Assembly (NCBI GenBank): GCA_030039005.1
Contig: JASHQT010000131.1
Coordinates: 1 to 32,462, forward strand
Length of the DNA stretch: 32,462 nucleotides
Source: Bryobacteraceae bacterium
Lineage (GTDB): Bacteria > Acidobacteriota > Terriglobia > Bryobacterales > Bryobacteraceae
Direction of reading: 5' to 3'
A program made the position numbers and the translations under genes. The notes under the pieces were generated by a model, which was not told where the DNA came from, did no database searches, and was given only the letters and a program-made list of their open reading frames with translations. Shown here one piece after another: positions 4,126 to 26,297 of the stretch. Position 1 is the stretch's first letter, and every line of letters starts with the position of its first letter.

Positions 4126-7100
4126 CTACTTGTCCCTCTGCTCGTCGTCAAGGTTAGATGCCACTCGTGCCGCCGCGGATGCGCTGAAATTGAATCGTGA
4201 TATCCACCGCGTGGCTCGAGTAGGCGGGCGGGATGGAAAGGCAAGATGGCTGGGCACCGAAAGCTCGACCTCGGTTCCGGCGCCTGGCCTGCTCCACAGC
4301 CGCACCTTGGCCCCGATCTTTTCGGCGCGCTCGCGCATCCCGGGCAGCCCCCAGTGTCCGTCCTTCCCTGACTGCAGCGTCTGGGGATCGATTCCCCGGC
4401 CGTTGTCCCGTACCAGCATCCGCAATCGGCTGGATGCGTACTCCACTTCCACTTCGATGCTGCGCGCCTCGGAATGACGGAACGCGTTGACCACGGCTTC
4501 GCGTCCGATGCGATAGACCTCATCGTGCAACATGGGACGCAGTGGCCGGCTCTCCCCATGGACGATCACACGAAAGCCGATGGCATGGCCGGCGGCGATT
4601 TCCTGTTGCAGCAGCGCAAACGCCTCTTCCAGGCTCATGGAGCCGCTTTCCGCCGAGCGTAGGCCGCGCACCGCATTCCGGCCTTCTTCAATCACTTGCG
4701 TCATGAGTCGCTGGACACGGCCGAGCGCCGGTTTCGAAGGAGAATCGGAGGGCAACCGGTCCACGGCGGCGTGGAGCTGCATGGAGGCGCTCAGAAAGCC
4801 TTGCAGCAGAGTGTCGTGCAACTCCCGCGCGATGCGTGTGCGCTCCCCCAGCCGCTCTTCGAAGCGCACGTTGAGTTGCTTGCTGAGCTGCCGCAGCCGC
4901 AGCCGGTAAAGCCCCAAGAAGGTAAGCGCGACGGCGAGCACGAGCGAAGCGCGAAACCACATGGTCTGCCAGAATTCAGGAGCAACGTCGAAGTCCAGCG
5001 TCGCTTCTTTTCCGTTCCACAAACCGCGGATGTCGCTGGCCATGACATGAAACTGGTACCGGCCGGGGCTCAGATTTGTGTAAATGGCCTCGCGCCGGTC
5101 TACTGGCCCGTTCCAGCCGCGATCGAAGCCATCCAACCGGAATCGATAGCGTACGCGCTCGGGAATCGAGAGATTCAATCCTACGAAATCCAGCATCACG
5201 CGCTGCCGGCCCGCCGGAATTCGGACGGAGGAGCCCATCACGATCGGTACATCATCCGCCGACACCGATTGGATTTGCGTGATCACCGGGATATTACTTC
5301 GATTAAAACGTGCGGGGTCCGCGACCGAGATGCCCCGATTTAGCGAAAACCAGATCCGCCCCAGCCGGTCCGCCACCACCGAACGCTGGCGTTTCACCCC
5401 TTCGACGCCTCGCAAGCCGTCGGCCACCGTGAACTCCCGGATGTCTCCCTCCTTCAGGAACCCGTGCATCAGCTTGGCGCGATCAATCCGCAGAACACGC
5501 TCGGAGGTTGCGATCCACAGCCCGCCGAAATGTCCCTCGGCGATCCCCAGGATCTGGTCGCGCAATTGTTCGGGAATGCCCGCGATCCCTTGAAACTGCC
5601 GCGAGGCGCGAAAGGCCAGGCCCGCCGCAGTCCCCACCCACAGCACCCCGGAGGAATCTTCGAACAGGCAATTGACGTTCTCTGAAGGCAGGCCATCGCG
5701 CGGCGCGTAGGAAATCCAGCGATCCTTGGTGAGCGCGCTCAAACCGTTCGGAGTGGCGAACCACATGGTTCCGTCCGAGGTCCGGAGTATTGCCGCCACG
5801 GTGTTCGACGCCAAGCCCTGGTCGATGGTGTACGTGGTGAATTTGCCGTCCTTCAGCCGGCTCACGCCGCCGCTCAAGGTGCCGGCCCAGACCGTTCCGT
5901 CAGGAGCCTCGTAGACCGAGTACACGCTGTCTTGCGCCAAGCCATCGGCGTACGTGTAAGTCTTGGTTGTAAACGTATCGCCATTAGCGCCTTTTTGCCA
6001 GGCTAGCCGCGTCAACCCGCCGCGCTGCCGGCCGAGCCAGAGCTCGCCATCCCGACCGTCGATCGAATAGACCACGTCGTTGTCCAACCCGGCTTGATGG
6101 ATCACGCCGTGCTGTCCGTTCTTCACCCACCACAGGCCGCCGGCGACCGGAGGAAACCACATGCGGCTTTCCTCGTCCACGTACACCGGATTGCTGCCGT
6201 CGGTGGGCAGCCCCTCCGGCGTCGAATAGGAAACGAACGGGCTATCGCGCAACCGATCCAGCCCGCTAGCGCTGCCGATCCAGAGGTTTCCTTCGCGGTC
6301 TTCGAACACGGCCGTGACGGCCTCCGGCGCCGTTGCGCCGGACAATTCCAGTGACGCGACACCCAACCGGTTGACACGCAACAGCCCGTGCGAATCGGTC
6401 CCCACCCAGAGATTTCCGTCCCGGTCGCGAGCCATCGCGAGAGCTTGGAAACCGTTCAGCTTGGGCGGCAGGGCGTCGGAGACAACCTCACGGCCGTCCC
6501 AGCGTGCGATGCCACTATCCGTTCCGATCCACAATCCACCGCCGCCGTCCGGCAGCAGACAGTTGATCTTTGCGTCCGGCAACCGCTCCCGGACGAAGGG
6601 CGCGGCGCCGCCTGATGCATGCAGCAACCCCGCGTCGCGCGTGCCGAGCCACAGATCGCCCGCGGGTGTTTCGGCCATAGACAACACCGGAGAACGAGGC
6701 ATGGAAGCGGGGGATTCGAGCATTGTGAACTCGCCACCCTTCTTACCAAACACGAAACCGCCGTCTTTTGCGATCAGAAGTTCGCCCCGTGCGGAAGTTG
6801 TCATGGCCGTGATGCTCGCATCCGACGGGAAACTGGGAGCCCGCTCAAAAACGCCGTCGTGATATCTCAACAGAATGGCCCCTTGCAGGCGGACCCAAAG
6901 GCCGCCGTCCGCCGCCGGCGCCAGCCCCAACACATTCGCGATCTGGAAATTCCGGGAGGGATCGTTGACCAGAACGAAGTTCCATCCGTCGAAGCGAATC
7001 AGGCCCGCTTGCGTCCCGATCCAAAGGTAACCGTCCGGGGTTTGCGTGATGGCATACACCGGCCCGCGCGGAAAGCCCTGCTCGGGACCCCATTGGTCGC

Positions 7101-8355: not shown

Positions 8356-11300
8356 CTAGTAGTAGAGCTTCAGTGCGATCTGCACCTGTCGCGGCTGGTT
8401 GGCCTGACTGGTAATTTGGCCGAACGTCGCGTCGCCTAGGTTGGTATCGGGCGGCCCGAACTGAACGCGATTCAAAGCATTGAATGCTTCCAGGCGAATC
8501 TGCAGCCGCGCCCCCTCCCGAAACTCGAGCGGGATCTCCTTGAACAGAGAAGCCGTCAAATTGTCAGTCCCGGGCATTCGCGCATTGGGGAGCACCCGCG
8601 GCGCATCGCCGTCGGTATAGGGGGCGGGCTGCACCGCGACCTGGGGATTCGCGAAATAGTGGTTCAAGTTGCCGGTCCCAGCCACCTTGAGCGGTGCGAG
8701 CAGATTCGGATATTGGTTGCCGTAGGTCGGCACATTGACGCTGCATCCGCCGCACAGAAAAAGCTGCAGCGGCAGCCCGTCATCGATTCGATAGATCCCG
8801 TTTACCTGCCATCCGCCGCCCAGCGCACCCGCAATCCCGCTCCAGTGCTTTCCAAACGGCAGTTGATACAGGAAAGTGAACTGCGCGATCTGCGGAATGC
8901 TGAACACCGAAAGCGACCGGTCCAGCTCCAGGTTGTTGGGATCGCGCGCGGCGGATTCGCTGGTGGTGGAGCCGCCGGTCAGAAACGAATAGCCGGAGGA
9001 GCCGAGCGACGCATCGTCGATACTCTTCTGGAACACATACGTGAAAAGGAACTGAACTCCGCCGGAGAAGCGCTTCTCGATGCGCAGCTGCCCGCCGTTA
9101 TAGATGGAATTGGCCCAGGGAACGAAGCTGCTGCTGATCCCAGTGGCGGTTCCGTTGCTGTACTGCGGATAAGGAACGTACAGCTTCCAGCGCGGGATGG
9201 TCGGCCCCGACAAATCCGCGCTTCCGCTGATGATTCCCTGGAAGGGATTCGGCAGCTGCGCCAGGTAATAGGACGGATCGGCGCGAAAAGCCGCCGCGAT
9301 ATTGGGCGGCAGCGCATCGATTTCGTCGTTATAACCCATCGCGTAGAGATGCGTTCCTTTTCGTCCGACGTATTCGATATCCAATAAGACCGACCAGGGA
9401 AGCCGGCGCTGGATCCCGAAACTCCAGGACTGCTCCTGGGGCGTCTGATTGAGGCTGCGAATCGGGATATTGGTCAGCGCCTGCCCGAGATCGGTGGACG
9501 TTCCAGCTTTATTTCCCACCGCGGTCTGAATTCCATAGGGGAAGGGATCGCGCAGGAACTCCAGCGGCAGCCAGGGCTCGCCGGGAACATTATTGACTCC
9601 TTGCGTTATGGCGTCATATCCCAGGAATCCGCCGCTCACGGAATTCCCCACCACGCCCACGTCCGAAGGATCGTAATAGATGCCGTAACCGCCGCGTACG
9701 ACCGTGCCTTTCAAAATCTCATCCGCGAACCCGAACCTCGGCCCCCAATCACGCCAGTCGGTGTTGAACTCGGTGTTGGGGTTTCCTTCCACGCCCACGT
9801 ATTCCACGGCGCCATGCAGGTTCAATCCGGGAACGGAGATCGGCGCGGGCGCCGAAGGATCGAAGTAGCTCATCTGGTTGAAGCGCTCGGTGCGCGGCGT
9901 GTTCACATCGTAGCGGAGCCCCACGTTGAGCGTCAGGTGTTGCGTCACGCGCCAGTTGTCCTGAATGAATCCGCCCGCCTGATAATTCCGCGTTGAGGTG
10001 TACGGAGGGATCTCGTATTCGGTGAATGGATTGTCGACGTAGCCGATCATCAGCCCGGCCAGCGCATCGCCGCCCACCCCGGCGGTTCCTGAAGCCGTCC
10101 CGCTATTGGTGAAGGCGAACAAGCCGTTCGGCGCGCCCGCCTGCAGAAAATTGATGCGATGCCGCCGGATCTCGCCGCCGAACTTGATCTCGTGCGCTCC
10201 GATGATGTGATCGATAGAACCCACCAGGTGCCCGGTTTCGCTCGCGAACTTGAGAATCGAATAGAACTGTCCGCCCAAACAGCCGTTGAATCCGTTGCAC
10301 CCGTAGGCGCTGAAAAGCCAGATCGAGGGCGGCGTCAGGAATCCCGATGTATCCATATAGGCCGGCATTCCCAGCTCTGTTACCGGGTTGAAACCGCCGA
10401 AAGACGCGGCCACTCCTTGGGTGGGATACCAGTTGTGTGCATATCCGATGGAAACGCTGGCAAGCGTCACGGGGCTGAAGGTGTGCTGATAATTCAGATC
10501 GCCCACCAGCGCGGCGTGTTTGGTCGGCCCCTGCGTGTTGGTGTCGTATACGGTGCCGAAGAAATTGGGATTTTCGCCCGCGTCCCACTCGTGCGAGAAC
10601 CGCACGCTGGCGGTGTTCTTGTCGCTGAAGTGCTGGTCGAGCTTGATATCGATGGATTGCTGGCTGTACGGGCTGGAAGCCGTCGTCACCCAGTTGTGAT
10701 AGGGATCGTACTGGGGAGTTCCTACGTTGAGGTTCGGCAAGGGGAAAGCCTGGATGAGCTTCGCGCCCACCGGGTCGATCAGATTTCCCGGCCGGTCCGG
10801 TAGATCGCCCAGCCCAAACGGAATGCTCGAATTGCCGGGGCTGATATAGGTGGCAAGGTTATTGAACGGGATGGGCGCGCGATTTACCGCCTGGTCCTCG
10901 GCGTTGGGCTGACCGGTGTAGGGATCGTAAATCTGCCCCGCGGGATTGGAGCAGATCCCTTCGGCGCTGAATGTGCCCCCCACGCGGCCGCACAACTCAC
11001 CGAAGTTGCCTGCGCGCTCGGCCGCGTCGGGCACGCCCGCGATGTTGGACGTGGCGCCCATGAGCGCGCGGATGCCGTTGAAGTCGAAAAAGAAGAACGT
11101 CCGATTCTTGAAGATGGGGCCGCCCGCCGTGACACCGAAGTCGTTGCGCGTCGAATGCGCCTGCCCGAGGCCGGCCGAATTGGCGAAGAAATTATTCGCG
11201 TTCAGGTCGTTGTTGCGCAGAAACTCGAACAGTTGCCCGTGGTATTCATTGGTTCCCGATTTCGTCACCACGTTGACGATGGTCCCGCCGCTGTTGCCGA

Positions 11301-12006
11301 ATTCAGCATTGAAATTCGCCTGCTGGATGGTGTATTCCTGGATTGCCTCCACCGGCGGCACATACAGCGCCTTCTGTACCCCGGGATTATTGTCGCTGTT
11401 CATGACGCTCACGCCGTCCAGCAACATATCGGCCTGGGCGTTGCGGCTGCCGTCGGAAACGAAATTGGTGACGAACCCGGGCGTGCTGATCCCGTTCCCG
11501 TATGTACTGCCCGGAGCCTGCGAGACCCCGGGTGCCAGAAAGGCTAGATCGAACGGATTGCGATCCACCAGCGGAAGGTCGTTAATCAGCTTCAGAGGCA
11601 CTGTCTCGCCGATGGCGGCGCTGTCGGACTCGAGAGGCGCATTGGCTTCTACCCTCGTCACGGCTCCTCCGACGGAGAGGGTCACATCGAGCGCTACGCT
11701 CGCATTCACCGCGACTACGATGCCGGAAGTATCGTAAGGCGCGAAGCCCGCGGCTGTGACCCGTAGCGCATAATTTCCTGGTGCGACGGACCGGAAAAGA
11801 TAGCGCCCCGTTTCGTCGGCCTGGGCGGTGTTCGCGACTCCCCGGTCATTGTCGGTGAGTGTAACCCTAGCGCCCGGAACCAATGCCTTGGAAGGATCTT
11901 TGATCGTCCCGGTCACTGATCCCGTGTATAGCTGACCCCACGCCAGCACCGACCACATGGGAAGAACCGCGCACTTCCAGAGGTTCGATACGAATCCTCT
12001 TTGCAC
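8356..12006 (-). CDS. TonB-dependent receptor, Oar-like, full length
   Basis: 1216 residues. A signal peptide of about 25 residues ending near LAWG is followed by a carboxypeptidase-regulatory-like domain at about 27-110 (GSVTGTIKDPSKALVPGARV, ETGRYLFRSVAPGNYAL), a plug domain at about 115-290 (NDLPLVDRNPFDLAFLAPGV, LDGVSVMNSDNNPGVQ, VVTKSGTNEYHGQLFEF) and a large barrel ending in VQIALKLYY. It is the first gene of a minus-strand operon with the GH16-like lipoprotein, the propeller kinase and the NarL regulator, suggesting uptake of a glycan fragment (inference). No SusD-like partner is present. The start is GTG at 12006, with only a weak ribosome site; the signal peptide right behind it supports the choice. 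Confidence 0.95.
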   Translation of the reverse strand: MQRGFVSNLWKCAVLPMWSVLAWGQLYTGSVTGTIKDPSKALVPGARVTLTDNDRGVANTAQADETGRYLFRSVAPGNYALRVTAAGFAPYDTSGIVVAVNASVALDVTLSVGGAVTRVEANAPLESDSAAIGETVPLKLINDLPLVDRNPFDLAFLAPGVSQAPGSTYGNGISTPGFVTNFVSDGSRNAQADMLLDGVSVMNSDNNPGVQKALYVPPVEAIQEYTIQQANFNAEFGNSGGTIVNVVTKSGTNEYHGQLFEFLRNNDLNANNFFANSAGLGQAHSTRNDFGVTAGGPIFKNRTFFFFDFNGIRALMGATSNIAGVPDAAERAGNFGELCGRVGGTFSAEGICSNPAGQIYDPYTGQPNAEDQAVNRAPIPFNNLATYISPGNSSIPFGLGDLPDRPGNLIDPVGAKLIQAFPLPNLNVGTPQYDPYHNWVTTASSPYSQQSIDIKLDQHFSDKNTASVRFSHEWDAGENPNFFGTVYDTNTQGPTKHAALVGDLNYQHTFSPVTLASVSIGYAHNWYPTQGVAASFGGFNPVTELGMPAYMDTSGFLTPPSIWLFSAYGCNGFNGCLGGQFYSILKFASETGHLVGSIDHIIGAHEIKFGGEIRRHRINFLQAGAPNGLFAFTNSGTASGTAGVGGDALAGLMIGYVDNPFTEYEIPPYTSTRNYQAGGFIQDNWRVTQHLTLNVGLRYDVNTPRTERFNQMSYFDPSAPAPISVPGLNLHGAVEYVGVEGNPNTEFNTDWRDWGPRFGFADEILKGTVVRGGYGIYYDPSDVGVVGNSVSGGFLGYDAITQGVNNVPGEPWLPLEFLRDPFPYGIQTAVGNKAGTSTDLGQALTNIPIRSLNQTPQEQSWSFGIQRRLPWSVLLDIEYVGRKGTHLYAMGYNDEIDALPPNIAAAFRADPSYYLAQLPNPFQGIISGSADLSGPTIPRWKLYVPYPQYSNGTATGISSSFVPWANSIYNGGQLRIEKRFSGGVQFLFTYVFQKSIDDASLGSSGYSFLTGGSTTSESAARDPNNLELDRSLSVFSIPQIAQFTFLYQLPFGKHWSGIAGALGGGWQVNGIYRIDDGLPLQLFLCGGCSVNVPTYGNQYPNLLAPLKVAGTGNLNHYFANPQVAVQPAPYTDGDAPRVLPNARMPGTDNLTASLFKEIPLEFREGARLQIRLEAFNALNRVQFGPPDTNLGDATFGQITSQANQPRQVQIALKLYY

Positions 12007-21792: not shown

Positions 21793-22245
21793 CTAGTTCT
21801 TCTTGATACTTCCCGGCGGAGGCTCGTTGATCACGGCCCAAAACACGCCAAGTTCCTTGATCGCGTTGACGAACTCGTGGAAGTCGACCGGCTTCACGAC
21901 ATAGGCGTTCACCCCGAGCTTGTAGCTGGCCACCATGTCTTTCTCTTCGTGCGAAGAGGTGAGCACGACCACGGGGATCAGCTTGAGCTGTTCGTTGGAC
22001 TTGATCTCCTGCAATACTTCCAGCCCGTTCACTTTAGGCAACTTCAAGTCCAGCAACAGCACGGCGGGATTCTCGCCGGCGCGGCGCATGAAGTTTCCGC
22101 GATAGAAGAGATAATCCAGCGCCTCTTCGCCATCTCGCACCACTACCACTTCGTTCGCAAGATTGTATTCTTCGAGCGCGGTCAGCGTGAGTTCGACGTC
22201 TTTAGGGTCGTCTTCGACGAGTAAGATACGGCCCAGTGTGCTCAT
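21793..22245 (-). CDS. Rcp-type single-domain response regulator
   Basis: 150 residues, receiver domain only: E11/D12/D13, phospho-acceptor D66 ([16 protein letters not shown]), T96 and K118 (YVVKPVD). The insertion [17 protein letters not shown] between beta-2 and beta-3 and the end [22 protein letters not shown] are typical of Rcp1-like receivers, which partner phytochrome-type kinases. Its ATG overlaps the kinase stop by 4 bp (ATGA), and the sigma-54 activator follows after 3 nt. It may act as a shuttle or phosphate sink between kinase and activator. Confidence 0.95.
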
Positions 22246-23795
22246 GAATTGGCTCCTTGCGATCTGGAAAGCGAGAAATAAAAAGTGGCGCCCCGGTCTA
22301 CTTCACCGTCGGCCCAAACACGCCCGCCGTGCCGGTGGACGATTCGTTGCACGGTGGCCAGCCCGATCCCCGTCCCTTCAAATGCTTCCACGGGATGAAG
22401 CCGTTGGAAAACGCCAAACAGCTTGTTCACGTATTTCATGTCGAATCCAACTCCATTGTCGCGTACGAACACGACCACTTGATTGGCGTTGTGCTCGATA
22501 CTCCCGATCTCGATTTCGGCGTGCGCCCGCGTGCGTGTGAACTTAACGGCATTCGCGACCAGATTCACTAGCGCCAGCCGGAGCATGGAACGATCGCCGT
22601 ACCAGGCGGGCAAGGCGCCGATCTTCCACTCAATGTCGCGACCGGCGGCGTCCTGGCGCACTTCCACCAGCACTTCCTGCACAAGCTGGTCCAGGTCGAC
22701 CGCCGTCTTATGCGTTTCCGCCCGGCCGATGCGGGAAAATGCGAGAAGATCGTCGATCAGATTTCCCATCTTGTCCGACGACTCCAGAATCATCGCGACG
22801 TACCTCTGGCTTTTCTCGTTGAGAAGGCCGGCCGTACTTTTCTTCAGCAACTGCGTGTAGCCGGACATGTGACGGAGCGGCGCCCGAAGGTCGTGCGATA
22901 TGGAATACGCAAAAGCTTCCAATTCCTTGTTGATGGATTCCAGCTCGGCCGTCCGCTGTCCCAACTGTTCGTTGAGTGAGGCCACTTCGAGTTCGCGGCG
23001 CTTGCGCTCACTGATGTCGTTGCCCGTCTCCAAAATGGCAACCGGCCGGTTGCTGTCATCGCGCCGCAACGCCCAGCGGCTGGCCACCACCACTTGGGTT
23101 CCGTCGCGCTTGGTGCGCCGGAACTCTCCTTGCCAGCGGCCGGCGTTCAGAAGCGCCGCATGGATTGTCTCGAGCGGCGCGGGAAACACGGTTCGCAAGA
23201 GGCCAGGCGAATTCTTGCCGAGAGCCTCCTCGGATGACCATCCATACAACTCCTCCGCGCCCCGATTCCAATAGGTAATCACGTCGTTCATGTCGCGAAC
23301 AAAGATAGTGTCGTGCGTAAGGTTCAGCAGGCTCGCTTGCTGGGTCCGTTCGGCCACTTCGATTTCCAGCCTGTCTCGAGCCTGCCGGAGGCCCACCTCG
23401 GCTTTCCTGCGCGCGCCGCTTAACCAAGTAGCTAGCAATGCAAATGCAGTGAAAATGAGAAAGTACGGAAGGTCGGAAGCGCTAATATCCAGCGAGTAGA
23501 GGGGTTCGACGAAAAAATAGTCAAAACAACCCACCGCGAGGATCAGAGCAACAGCGGCCGGCCCGGGGCCCCCGTACCAAGCTGTCAACAAAAGAGCGAA
23601 CAACAACAGCGGAACTTCGACGTCGCGAACGTGCAGACCGTTCACTAGCAGTGCCGCTCCAGTCGCCAGGGCTACTGAGAAAACCGCGACCAGATAGCGG
23701 CCCAGGATCACGAGCCGCTTTTGAGGCTGGGGTCTTCGCTCTGCCGGAGGGGTGCTTGCGTCCGTCATGAGGTGCCAGACTGGAGCAACCATCAT
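22242..23795 (-). CDS. Membrane sensor kinase: KdpD-like 4-helix region, PAS, phytochrome-type HisKA/HATPase_c
   Basis: About 517 residues. Four closely spaced membrane helices at about 28-127, of the DUF4118/KdpD type ([23 protein letters not shown]), then a coiled coil, a PAS domain at about 155-265 ([25 protein letters not shown] ... [10 protein letters not shown]), phospho-accepting H301 ([16 protein letters not shown]) and HATPase_c with [18 protein letters not shown] and [13 protein letters not shown]. The frame stays open upstream to 24413, but that extension is remnant catalase sequence. I choose the ATG at 23795 (a second ATG is adjacent, another at 23768); no clear ribosome site helps. 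It overlaps the Rcp-type receiver by 4 bp. Confidence 0.9.
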
Positions 23796-24023
23796 AACGC
23801 TTAGATGCCGGCCAGCCCGCCGGAGTCTTGTGTCTATAAGCCGTGGGTCAAACCCGGATGTGCCGGTACGTCCCGCAGAGCGGTATACGGCAGCCCTGCG
23901 AGCGGACGGTCGGGAGATGACACCGGCGGACGCTAGCGTGCACGAACCCTCCACGACGCCATACGGCTGAAGGTTCCGTCGCGCGCCACCCCGGTGTGAA
24001 ACAAAACGGCGCCCAAATGGGCG

Positions 24024-24542
24024 AGCTTCCGGATGAGCCGCCAGAAAAGCCGCCACTCTCTCCGAGTCGGGCTTCCCCGTCTTTGGGTCCGGCTGTGTCG
24101 CAACTAATCGGTGATAGAAAGCCTGCGGGGTATGCACCCCAAATACCGCTGTGTCGATCATGGCGGTGCGCCATTCTTCACCATCGCGCAGCTGGAACAA
24201 GAGCCCGAGGCCACGGACCATTTGGGGCTTGTCGGCTTGAAATGGGTTGCCGCCTGCCAGAGAGAAGCGGCCGATGAGGGGAACGCGTCCGGTTTGGAAG
24301 ACTACGGCCTTGGAAAGCCGTGTGCCCTGGCCATTGCTCTCGAAAAAGCCACTGACGCAAACACCCTTGGCATGATTGAGGAAAACCGGAATGGATTCCG
24401 TCGACGCGCTCAAAGCCGTCGGCGAAATGTCCCGGCGTCAACGCTCCAGGATTGATCCAGCCACCTTAAGATACAGAAATGCCGCGGCAGCGCACGCAAC
24501 AACGACGGCGACGCCCGCCAGTCTTGCATTTCGGGACGGCAC
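24024..24542 (-). pseudogene. Catalase-family peroxidase remnant, frameshifted and truncated
   Basis: From GTG 24542 (GGAGG 9 nt upstream) a membrane-anchor-like start reads RLAGVAVVVACAAAAFLYL, typical of catalase-related peroxidases. The frame breaks near 24438-24445 (ER|LTP), continues in a second frame as LTPGHFADGFERVDGIHSGF, and breaks again at an AAAA run, 24382-24385. It then resumes as LNHAKGVCVSGFFESNGQG, IGRFSLAGGNPF, VRGLGLLFQL, GEEWRTAM, QPDPKTGKPDSERVAAFLAAHPEA, with the catalytic His in NHAKG. Family similarity stops at about 24024: the C-terminal half with the Asn-x-Phe block and the haem-ligand Tyr is absent. The last frame runs without a stop into the sensor kinase gene. The segment 23796-24023 holds no recognisable gene. 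Confidence 0.8.
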
Positions 24543-24730: not shown

Positions 24731-25423
24731 TTACGCCTCGTGCCCGTAGACCGGAATCGCCGCGCCGGTAATGTGAGCGGCGCTATCGGCAGCCAGAAAT
24801 AACACCAATTCCGCTACATCCTGAGGCGGGACCCAGCGCGAAAAATCCGCCTGGGGTTCGGCCTTCCGGTTCGCATCCGTGTTCAGGGTGCCGGGCAGGA
24901 TGGCGTTTACGGTGATGCCGGCTTCTTTATTCTCCAGCGCTGCCGAGCGCACCAGGGAGACCAGTGCTGCCTTGGACGCTGCATAGGCGGCGATATTCGC
25001 CGCCGGTTCGGCCGCCGCGCGGCTGGCGATGGCGACAATCCGGCCCGTGCCGGCCTGGCGCATATGTGGGATCACGGTCCGAAAAATGTTGAAAGCCGAG
25101 CGAAGGTTCAGATCCATCATCCGCTCCCAAGTGGCGTCATCGGTCTCGGCGATGGGCTTGCCGCCCGCGAATCCCCCCATCAGATGGGCCAACGCGTCGA
25201 TGCGCTCAAAGCGCTGGATGACAGCTTCGACGAGTTGGCCCGCGGAGACGGCGTCGGTTAAATCAGACGCTATCGCCACGAAGCGGGGGTTTTGGAAACT
25301 GGCCGCCTGGATCGACTTGGACGTGCCCACTACAGTGTCGCCGGCGGCGAGAAACGTCTCAGTGACGAAACTGCCGAGGCCACCGTTGGCGCCGGTGATC
25401 AAAACGATGCGGTTGCTGTTCAT
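24731..25423 (-). CDS. Short-chain dehydrogenase/reductase
   Basis: 230 residues, classical SDR size. NAD(P)-binding TGANGGLG at 10-17, catalytic N106 (DLNLRSAFN), S134 (IVAIASRAAAEP), Y147 and K151 (YAASK), and the usual LPGTLNTD and GAAIPVYG blocks near the C-terminus. The oxidoreductase substrate cannot be deduced. The ATG has AAGGGAG 6 nt upstream. It is divergent from the selenocysteine-type peroxiredoxin gene across 205 bp that contain inverted repeat site B, so the two are probably regulated together. Confidence 0.93.
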   Translation of the reverse strand: MNSNRIVLITGANGGLGSFVTETFLAAGDTVVGTSKSIQAASFQNPRFVAIASDLTDAVSAGQLVEAVIQRFERIDALAHLMGGFAGGKPIAETDDATWERMMDLNLRSAFNIFRTVIPHMRQAGTGRIVAIASRAAAEPAANIAAYAASKAALVSLVRSAALENKEAGITVNAILPGTLNTDANRKAEPQADFSRWVPPQDVAELVLFLAADSAAHITGAAIPVYGHEA

Positions 25424-25628: not shown

Positions 25629-26297
25629 ATGCCAAGCCTTCAGGATCGCCTGGACGAATTCAAGAAATCGTTTGAGTCCGGCGCCCCACCCTACAACGCG
25701 CCGCGGGAAGCAATCGAAAGCATGCATCGCGCCACGGCTGAGTTGAAGGCATCGGGGGCGGAAGAACGTGCGCTGAAGGCTGGAGACCGGGCCCCAAACT
25801 TCACCTTGTTCAATCAGGATCACGCACAAGTGTCCTCGAACGACCTGCTTCGCGAAGGGCCGCTTGTCGTCAGCTTCTTCCGAGGACATTGGTGACCCTA
25901 CTGCAATATGGAGCTGGAGGCTCTGCAAGAGATAACTTCCGACGTGCAGGCGCTCGGTGCACGGATTGTGACGCTCACTCCGGAAATGGAGCGGTACACC
26001 CGCAGTCTATATAAGAGGCTGAATTTGACGTTCGATATCCTGACCGATCTGCACCAAAAGACGGCAGAGCAGTTCCGCCTCGTGTTCGTTTTGCCGGACT
26101 ATTTGCGTGATCTGTACAAGTCCTTCGGCAGTTCCCTGGATAGGTTCAACGATGAACCTGAATACCGATTGCCGATGCCGGCCCGTTATGTGATCGACAA
26201 GCAAGGCATCATTCGCGCCGCCGATGTGAACGCCGATTATACGGTGCGTTCCGATCCCTACGAGACGCTAAAATCCTTGCGGGCATTATCCGGTTGA
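25629..26297 (+). CDS. Peroxiredoxin-like selenoprotein, AhpC/TSA fold, with in-frame TGA as Sec89
   Basis: Read as one frame, this gives 222 residues with TGA (25893-25895) as residue 89. N-terminal helices (LQDRLDEFKKSFESG) and LKAGDRAPNFTLFNQD lead to the active-site block VVSFFRGHW-U-PYCNMELEAL. The closest family pattern is W-C-PYC-N-x-E-L, so TGA stands exactly at the peroxidatic cysteine and Cys92 is the partner. The frame continues with no other defect: ARIVTLTPEMERYTR, FDILTDLHQKTAEQF, LPMPARYVIDKQGIIRAADVNADYTVRSDP, a normal thioredoxin-fold end. A hairpin suited to a bacterial SECIS starts 13 nt after the TGA. It should reduce peroxides in the cytoplasm. The ATG has AAGGGA about 4 nt upstream. 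Ordinary gene callers would split or shorten it. The alternative is a single nonsense mutation. Confidence 0.78.
25909..25925 (+). promoter_or_regulatory. SECIS-like stem-loop behind the UGA codon
   Basis: UGGAGC pairs with GCUCUG (four Watson-Crick pairs plus two G-U) around a 5-nt loop UGGAG. The loop begins 19 nt after the UGA and has G in its second position. Bacterial SECIS elements are short hairpins within a few tens of nucleotides of the UGA with a G at the start of the loop, so place and form both fit. Confidence 0.6.

Follow-up and report, generated by a model that had tools for sequence, protein, structure and literature searches.

A predicted peroxiredoxin-like UxxC selenoprotein in Acidobacteriota

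A peroxiredoxin-like gene with a single in-frame TGA

The window analysed here is a stretch of 32,462 nucleotides (contig JASHQT010000131.1, assembly GCA_030039005.1) from a Bryobacteraceae bacterium of the phylum Acidobacteriota. It contains a peroxiredoxin-like (Prx-like) gene that runs from an ATG in a single frame, open except for an internal TGA at codon 89 and the terminal TGA (Table 1). Reading through the internal TGA yields a product of 222 residues with selenocysteine (Sec, U) at position 89, within the sequence RGHW-U-PYC-NMEL (U89-P-Y-C92). A first-pass annotation, made from the sequence alone, had described this frame as broken solely by the TGA and as fitting the AhpC/TSA fold on both sides of it. 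Reading the frame bears out the first point, and the second agrees with matches to two Pfam domains that span the TGA, namely AhpC-TSA (PF00578; E-value 6.2e-24, 84.8 bits against a cut-off of 26) and Redoxin (E-value 4.8e-16, 59.3 bits against a cut-off of 26.6). The protein combines a PF00578 domain with a U-x-x-C motif, the two features that characterise Prx-like UxxC selenoproteins. Relatives of the gene begin at the same place, and an AAGGG about 5 bases 5' of the ATG would, by its presumed role, further support this start.

Table 1. Features of the Prx-like locus, in window coordinates.
Feature	Position	Strand	Remarks
Predicted Sec-encoding Prx-like gene	25629..26297	+	222 residues, Sec at 89
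TGA predicted to be read as selenocysteine, residue 89, first of UxxC	25893..25895	+	TGA also in 18 relatives
Cys92 codon, the Cys of UxxC	25902..25904	+	Aligns with peroxidatic Cys of PrxQ/Bcp
SECIS-like hairpin, stem TGGAGC(T) / (G)GCTCTG, apical GGA	25909..25925	+	Same register in all 19 TGA genes
Pro184 codon	26178..26180	+	Aligns with Pro of ResA 'LPTS' (very weak stretch) and Arg of Prx 'KRAVF'
Spurious 129-aa open reading frame from downstream ATG	25908..26297	+	Near-identical products deposited from other contigs

The TGA is shared by 18 acidobacterial relatives

A scan of a species-genome collection returned 33 loci, nine of which (L001-L009) are close relatives and were examined; the other 24 (23-30% identity) lay outside the motif reading. 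The nine come from acidobacterial metagenome-assembled genomes (Acidiferrales, Sulfotelmatobacter, Acidobacteriaceae and Terriglobales), and TGA occupies the site in 8/8 of L001-L008, L009 being a fragment without the site. Further samples were drawn from the class (399 genomes; 5 matches in 4 genomes at E 1e-55), the phylum (396 genomes; 7 matches in 6 genomes at E 1e-45) and the family (300 genomes; 15 matches in 13 genomes at E 1e-45), and ten genomes were searched at E 1e-15 (21 matches, two of them fragments without the site). These samples overlap, and motif counts therefore refer to distinct genes. Altogether, 18 acidobacterial relatives (40-84% protein identity) have TGA in the same codon, giving 19 TGA genes with the window (L001-L008, L078, L080, L090, L091, L110, L112, L113, L115, L116 and L118), and 13 homologues have cysteine there (L092-L098, L111, L114, L117 and L119-L121). 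The in-frame TGA thus occupies a redox position that is Cys in homologues, as expected of a selenoprotein gene. Three genomes carry two TGA genes each (G002, L002 and L080; G004, L004 and L090; G001, L001 and L091). An automated count had also listed L093 as a TGA gene, which we rejected on finding that its motif codon reads TGC. L092-L098 represent a second, Cys-type paralogue (RGRWCPFC, 31-35% identical), lacking a hairpin of the kind described below and present in 7/10 of the relatives' genomes searched. Of 120 listed database proteins, 53 were included in the alignment of relatives, and all 74 matching plasmid records fell below 60% identity. In a tree of 64 proteins, built with the Sec column masked, the window protein falls in a clade of 22 (support 100/100), half TGA genes (11) and half database proteins (11).

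A conserved hairpin follows the TGA

Downstream of the TGA lies a hairpin (TGGAGC/TGGAG/GCTCTG) whose loop begins 19 nt past the TGA. The first-pass annotation had proposed this element, with its early loop G, as resembling a selenocysteine insertion sequence (SECIS), and comparison supports the proposal: the hairpin recurs in all 19 TGA genes without a shift in register, and its GAGC/GCTC core never varies. A scan 16-37 nt after the codon, for hairpins with 6 bp or more and a G among the first two loop nucleotides, found one in 19/19 TGA genes and in 0/12 Cys genes (L114 was outside the scan). At other codons of the TGA genes included in one of the scans, such a hairpin, with three G-C pairs also demanded, occurs at 138/2,301. 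Codons 95-98 (GAG CTG GAG GCT) are identical in 11/11 sequences and form the gene's strongest stretch without synonymous variation. For the same 11 sequences, the share of same-codon pairs is 0.93 at codons 95-99, compared with a mean of 0.49 at invariant-amino-acid columns outside codons 90-102, and amino-acid-matched resampling reached the former value in 0/200,000 draws. Four stem pairs never vary over the 19 TGA genes, while the outermost is U-A in 11, U-G in 3, C-G in 3 and broken in 2; paired cells make up 97.7%, against 37.6-53.4% when the partner is slid.

The bacterial SECIS (bSECIS) model, as given in the available part of PMC13188914, calls for a loop of 3-9 nt, a stem of 4-16 bp, G in the first two loop positions, a loop 16-37 nt after the UGA and an energy of -7.5 kcal/mol or lower. 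Checking the hairpin against this model, as the first-pass annotation had suggested, gave a divided result. The geometry agrees (loop 19 or 20 nt after the UGA, according to whether the stem includes the U-G pair, a stem of 6-7 bp, and the G present), but the energy falls short in the window. The 20-nt hairpin alone ranges from -6.2 to -7.5 kcal/mol in ten relatives folded and the alignment consensus has an energy of -7.51; a 42-nt region of the window reaches -9.1 kcal/mol in another fold. Scans of the window with Rfam models and for tRNA genes gave no matches. The evidence for this putative SECIS is comparative rather than thermodynamic.

Selenocysteine machinery in related genomes

Decoding of UGA as Sec would require the SelA/SelB/SelC/SelD system, which was sought in the genomes of nine relatives (G001-G009). 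SelB scored above cut-off in 9/9, and also in G320 (10/10 overall). SelA was found in 8/9, SelD in 9/9 (with a TGA reported in 7, by automated count) and a tRNA-Sec with anticodon tca in 8/9. The first-pass annotation had named a lack of selB or tRNA-Sec as telling against its claim; applied to the relatives' genomes, this check did not refute it. An Rfam tRNA-Sec match in G007 was discounted, as ARAGORN identifies the gene as a tRNA-Ser. Formate dehydrogenase alpha (TIGR01553) scored above cut-off in 9/10 genomes, with a TGA reported in 8 by automated count, suggesting that the relatives probably also hold a Sec-containing formate dehydrogenase. An earlier impression that most relatives lack the enzyme, drawn from TIGR01591 (3/10 at E 1e-100, none above cut-off), was dropped in view of the TIGR01553 result. 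The presence of this machinery together with TIGR01553 genes reported to contain a TGA suggests that Sec decoding is ordinary in the group and is not kept for the Prx-like gene alone. In G007, one contig carries both selB (L007 758-1855, minus strand) and the Prx-like gene (5669-6328, plus strand), about 3.8 kb apart.

Sec decoding of the TGA is strongly favoured

Several observations weigh against Sec decoding or its details. The 20-nt hairpin of the window has an energy of -6.5 kcal/mol, which misses the bSECIS limit, and a 61-nt single-sequence fold of the window lacks the hairpin and scores no better than shuffled sequences do (z 0.31); single-sequence folding was consequently dropped as SECIS evidence. 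Covariation in the stem is slight, with one pair showing two-sided change (reached by 344/500 column shuffles), and 12/500 shuffles reach the covariation score and 27/500 the paired share. Profile searches of G001-G009 found no SelA in G005, and no tRNA-Sec was found in G007. The Sec machinery of the window strain is itself expected by extension from its relatives' genomes. The 11 database proteins of the window's clade show Trp (6), Arg (2), Leu (1) and Cys (2) at the Sec site. Finally, the chemistry, in which the Sec selenolate would attack a disulfide or peroxide, is itself a prediction.

Set against the TGA conserved in 18 relatives, the conserved hairpin and the relatives' Sec machinery, these points still leave it very probable that UGA 25893-25895 is decoded as Sec, as the first-pass annotation had claimed, a judgement that concerns decoding and not chemistry. 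We have high confidence in a real selenoprotein for the group and somewhat less for the window strain, where Sec insertion is extrapolated from the relatives. The hairpin would direct the SelA/SelB/SelC/SelD system to insert Sec at the UGA.

Sec89 probably opens a thioredoxin-type motif

The first-pass annotation had placed the TGA at the peroxidatic cysteine, a placement the alignments do not support. When aligned to PrxQ/Bcp-type chains, the protein has position 89 opposite the Ser/Thr of (S/T)xxC and Cys92 opposite the peroxidatic Cys, while in alignments to ResA and a thioredoxin-family protein position 89 corresponds to the first Cys of CxxC. The canonical peroxiredoxin motif is absent, the Pro of PxxxTxxC being aligned with invariant Arg85. 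Also absent is the conserved Arg of KRAVF, which we take to be the catalytic Arg of peroxiredoxins and which aligns with Pro184 (alignment to 2ywn/4g2e). A reading that shares Sec decoding and differs in chemistry holds that Sec89 is itself peroxidatic, in a Sec-containing peroxidase. The AhpC/TSA fold speaks for it, as do the nearest structures (AhpE and Bcp, with PrxQ further down the list), but the alignment of Sec89, Cys92, Arg85 and Pro184 speaks against it, and we regard it as unlikely, if worth keeping in view.

Judged from these alignments, we place Sec89 as the first residue of a thioredoxin-type U-x-x-C and not in the peroxidatic column. The 222-residue protein would carry Sec89 and Cys92 as a thioredoxin-type pair on a peroxiredoxin scaffold. 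After attack by the selenolate, Cys92 would resolve Sec as a selenenylsulfide, which a thioredoxin-like donor would then reduce. The protein is best filed as a Prx-like UxxC selenoprotein and is probably a Sec-dependent thiol-disulfide oxidoreductase or an atypical peroxidase.

Alternative explanations of the residue at the Sec site

Three of the database proteins in the window's clade look intact apart from the Sec position, which is Arg in P0006, Leu in P0010 and Arg in P0012. Variants of tRNA-Sec that read sense codons occur elsewhere, and Arg and Leu codons can each be one base from TGA. The Arg and Leu rows (perhaps also the Trp rows) could reflect a tRNA-Sec with a changed anticodon that, with the same SECIS, places Sec at a sense codon, which we think very improbable; Sec losses, sequencing errors or translation artefacts are more likely sources of the Arg, Leu and Trp rows.

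A pseudogene, in which a Cys codon has lately mutated to the stop codon TGA, might be suspected from the 13 Cys relatives and because the Sec genes of the window strain are predicted from its relatives. Far from being the lone nonsense mutation that the first-pass annotation had allowed for, however, the TGA is common to 18 relatives, in most of which the gene has other neighbours, nothing else interrupts the frame, residues past the TGA are conserved, and the hairpin is synonymously frozen. The 19-gene comparison refutes a pseudogene for the group, and the idea is scarcely credible overall. Reading of UGA as tryptophan under a table-4-like code, suggested by six JGI relatives deposited as W-W-PYC (P0002-P0005, P0009 and P0011), can hardly hold, since TGA also appears to terminate the gene in the window, L001, L007 and L008 and the code is therefore not table 4, other relatives have Cys at position 89, the relatives possess Sec machinery, and the deposited Trp may be a translation artefact.

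Repeated switches between Sec and Cys

A second tree, of 44 proteins (19 Sec and 25 Cys), was used to count changes without direction. At least four Sec/Cys state changes are required, of which the starred branches alone force two. A single origin of Sec was rejected, one Sec clade being incompatible with this tree (p-AU 2.5e-9), though long branches meet. These switches, together with the hairpin in 19/19 Sec genes and 0/12 Cys genes scanned, make the family a usable natural series for studying why Sec is kept or lost.

Relation to known families

As far as the available parts of the papers go, Prx-like UxxC was among the selenoprotein families already known in the 2005 Sargasso Sea study (PMC1088965), has been counted in bacterial genomes (PMC1794560) and, as 'Prx-like 1', in ocean metagenomes (PMC2398784), is tabulated with figures 28 and 32 in PMC5029168, and is included in Table 1 of a 2026 review (PMC13188914). 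The same parts report four selenoproteins in three families for Acidobacteria (PMC1794560) and three known selenoprotein genes in one acidobacterium (PMC12013277). Our literature searches, with subscription journals mostly outside their scope, turned up no title or abstract on the acidobacterial form among the papers listed. The window gene is very probably a new but ordinary member, from soil Acidobacteriota, of a family known since at least 2005.

The Prx-like (thiol:disulfide oxidoreductase) UxxC selenoproteins predicted in bacteria (PMC1088965, PMC2398784 and PMC13188914, in their available parts) share PF00578 and U-x-x-C with the window protein; the examples given there are marine, deltaproteobacterial or clostridial, in contrast to the 222-residue acidobacterial form. 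Cys-containing 'peroxiredoxin-like family protein' sequences from Proteobacteria (aligned rows P0016 onward) are 53-58% identical to the window protein. Two of them, P0016 and P0022, share RGVWCPYCNMEL, and proteins of this type have Cys where the window protein has Sec. The Sec-containing TxxU peroxiredoxins have the same fold, but their Sec is at the peroxidatic position, whereas that of the window protein stands three residues earlier. The peroxi_PrxU model NF040737, which we take to represent the TxxU type, gave 21.1 bits on the window protein against a cut-off of 270. The SelL-related redox protein model (NF040769) likewise fell below its cut-off (31.5 bits against 120). Peroxiredoxin-like family protein cd02970 is also an AhpC/TSA-type selenoprotein family, set apart by its motif as described in the part of PMC13188914 available (UxxS rather than UxxC).

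The additions to this known kind are modest, comprising the lineage, its misannotation and the at least four Sec/Cys switches; they place a Sec-dependent, thioredoxin-like redox protein in Acidobacteriota.

Misannotation in databases

Gene finders misread this probable Sec gene as cut in two by a stop. As the first-pass annotation had predicted, the annotated product begins afresh at the downstream ATG. This is the start of two 129-aa NCBI proteins from other contigs (P0014 and P0015, 98-99% identical), and P0013 is the same 129-aa product from the window itself. The locus illustrates clearly how a selenoprotein is distorted in databases, where it is either broken up, leaving a false product of 129 residues, or entered with a different residue in place of Sec.

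Gene neighbourhood and other features of the window

The Prx-like gene is flanked by opposite-strand genes, a short-chain dehydrogenase (SDR) upstream and a histidine kinase downstream, and since both neighbours are on the other strand it probably stands alone. Of 20 window genes set against ten loci, the Prx-like gene alone had close matches (70-84%), the remaining matches lying at 25-34%, and gene neighbourhood was rejected as a clue to function. The window SDR (24731-25423, minus strand) precedes the Prx-like gene in divergent orientation, and the neighbours differ at other loci. An SDR about 31% identical to it is the immediate upstream neighbour of the Prx-like gene in L002 (7156-7932, plus strand) and L005 (4621-5370, plus strand), an adjacency that is possibly due to chance because SDRs are common.

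The open reading frame at 22242-24413 (minus strand) matches Pfam Catalase over its first ~140 residues (E-value 5e-12) and then a DUF4118/PAS/HisKA sensor kinase, and may represent a catalase-type gene, cut short, that continues in frame as a kinase. Two large frames, at 97-1794 and 8356-12006, presumably encode beta-barrel outer-membrane proteins, which their translations resemble; the latter opens with a carboxypeptidase-regulatory-like stretch that we take to be typical of Acidobacteriota.
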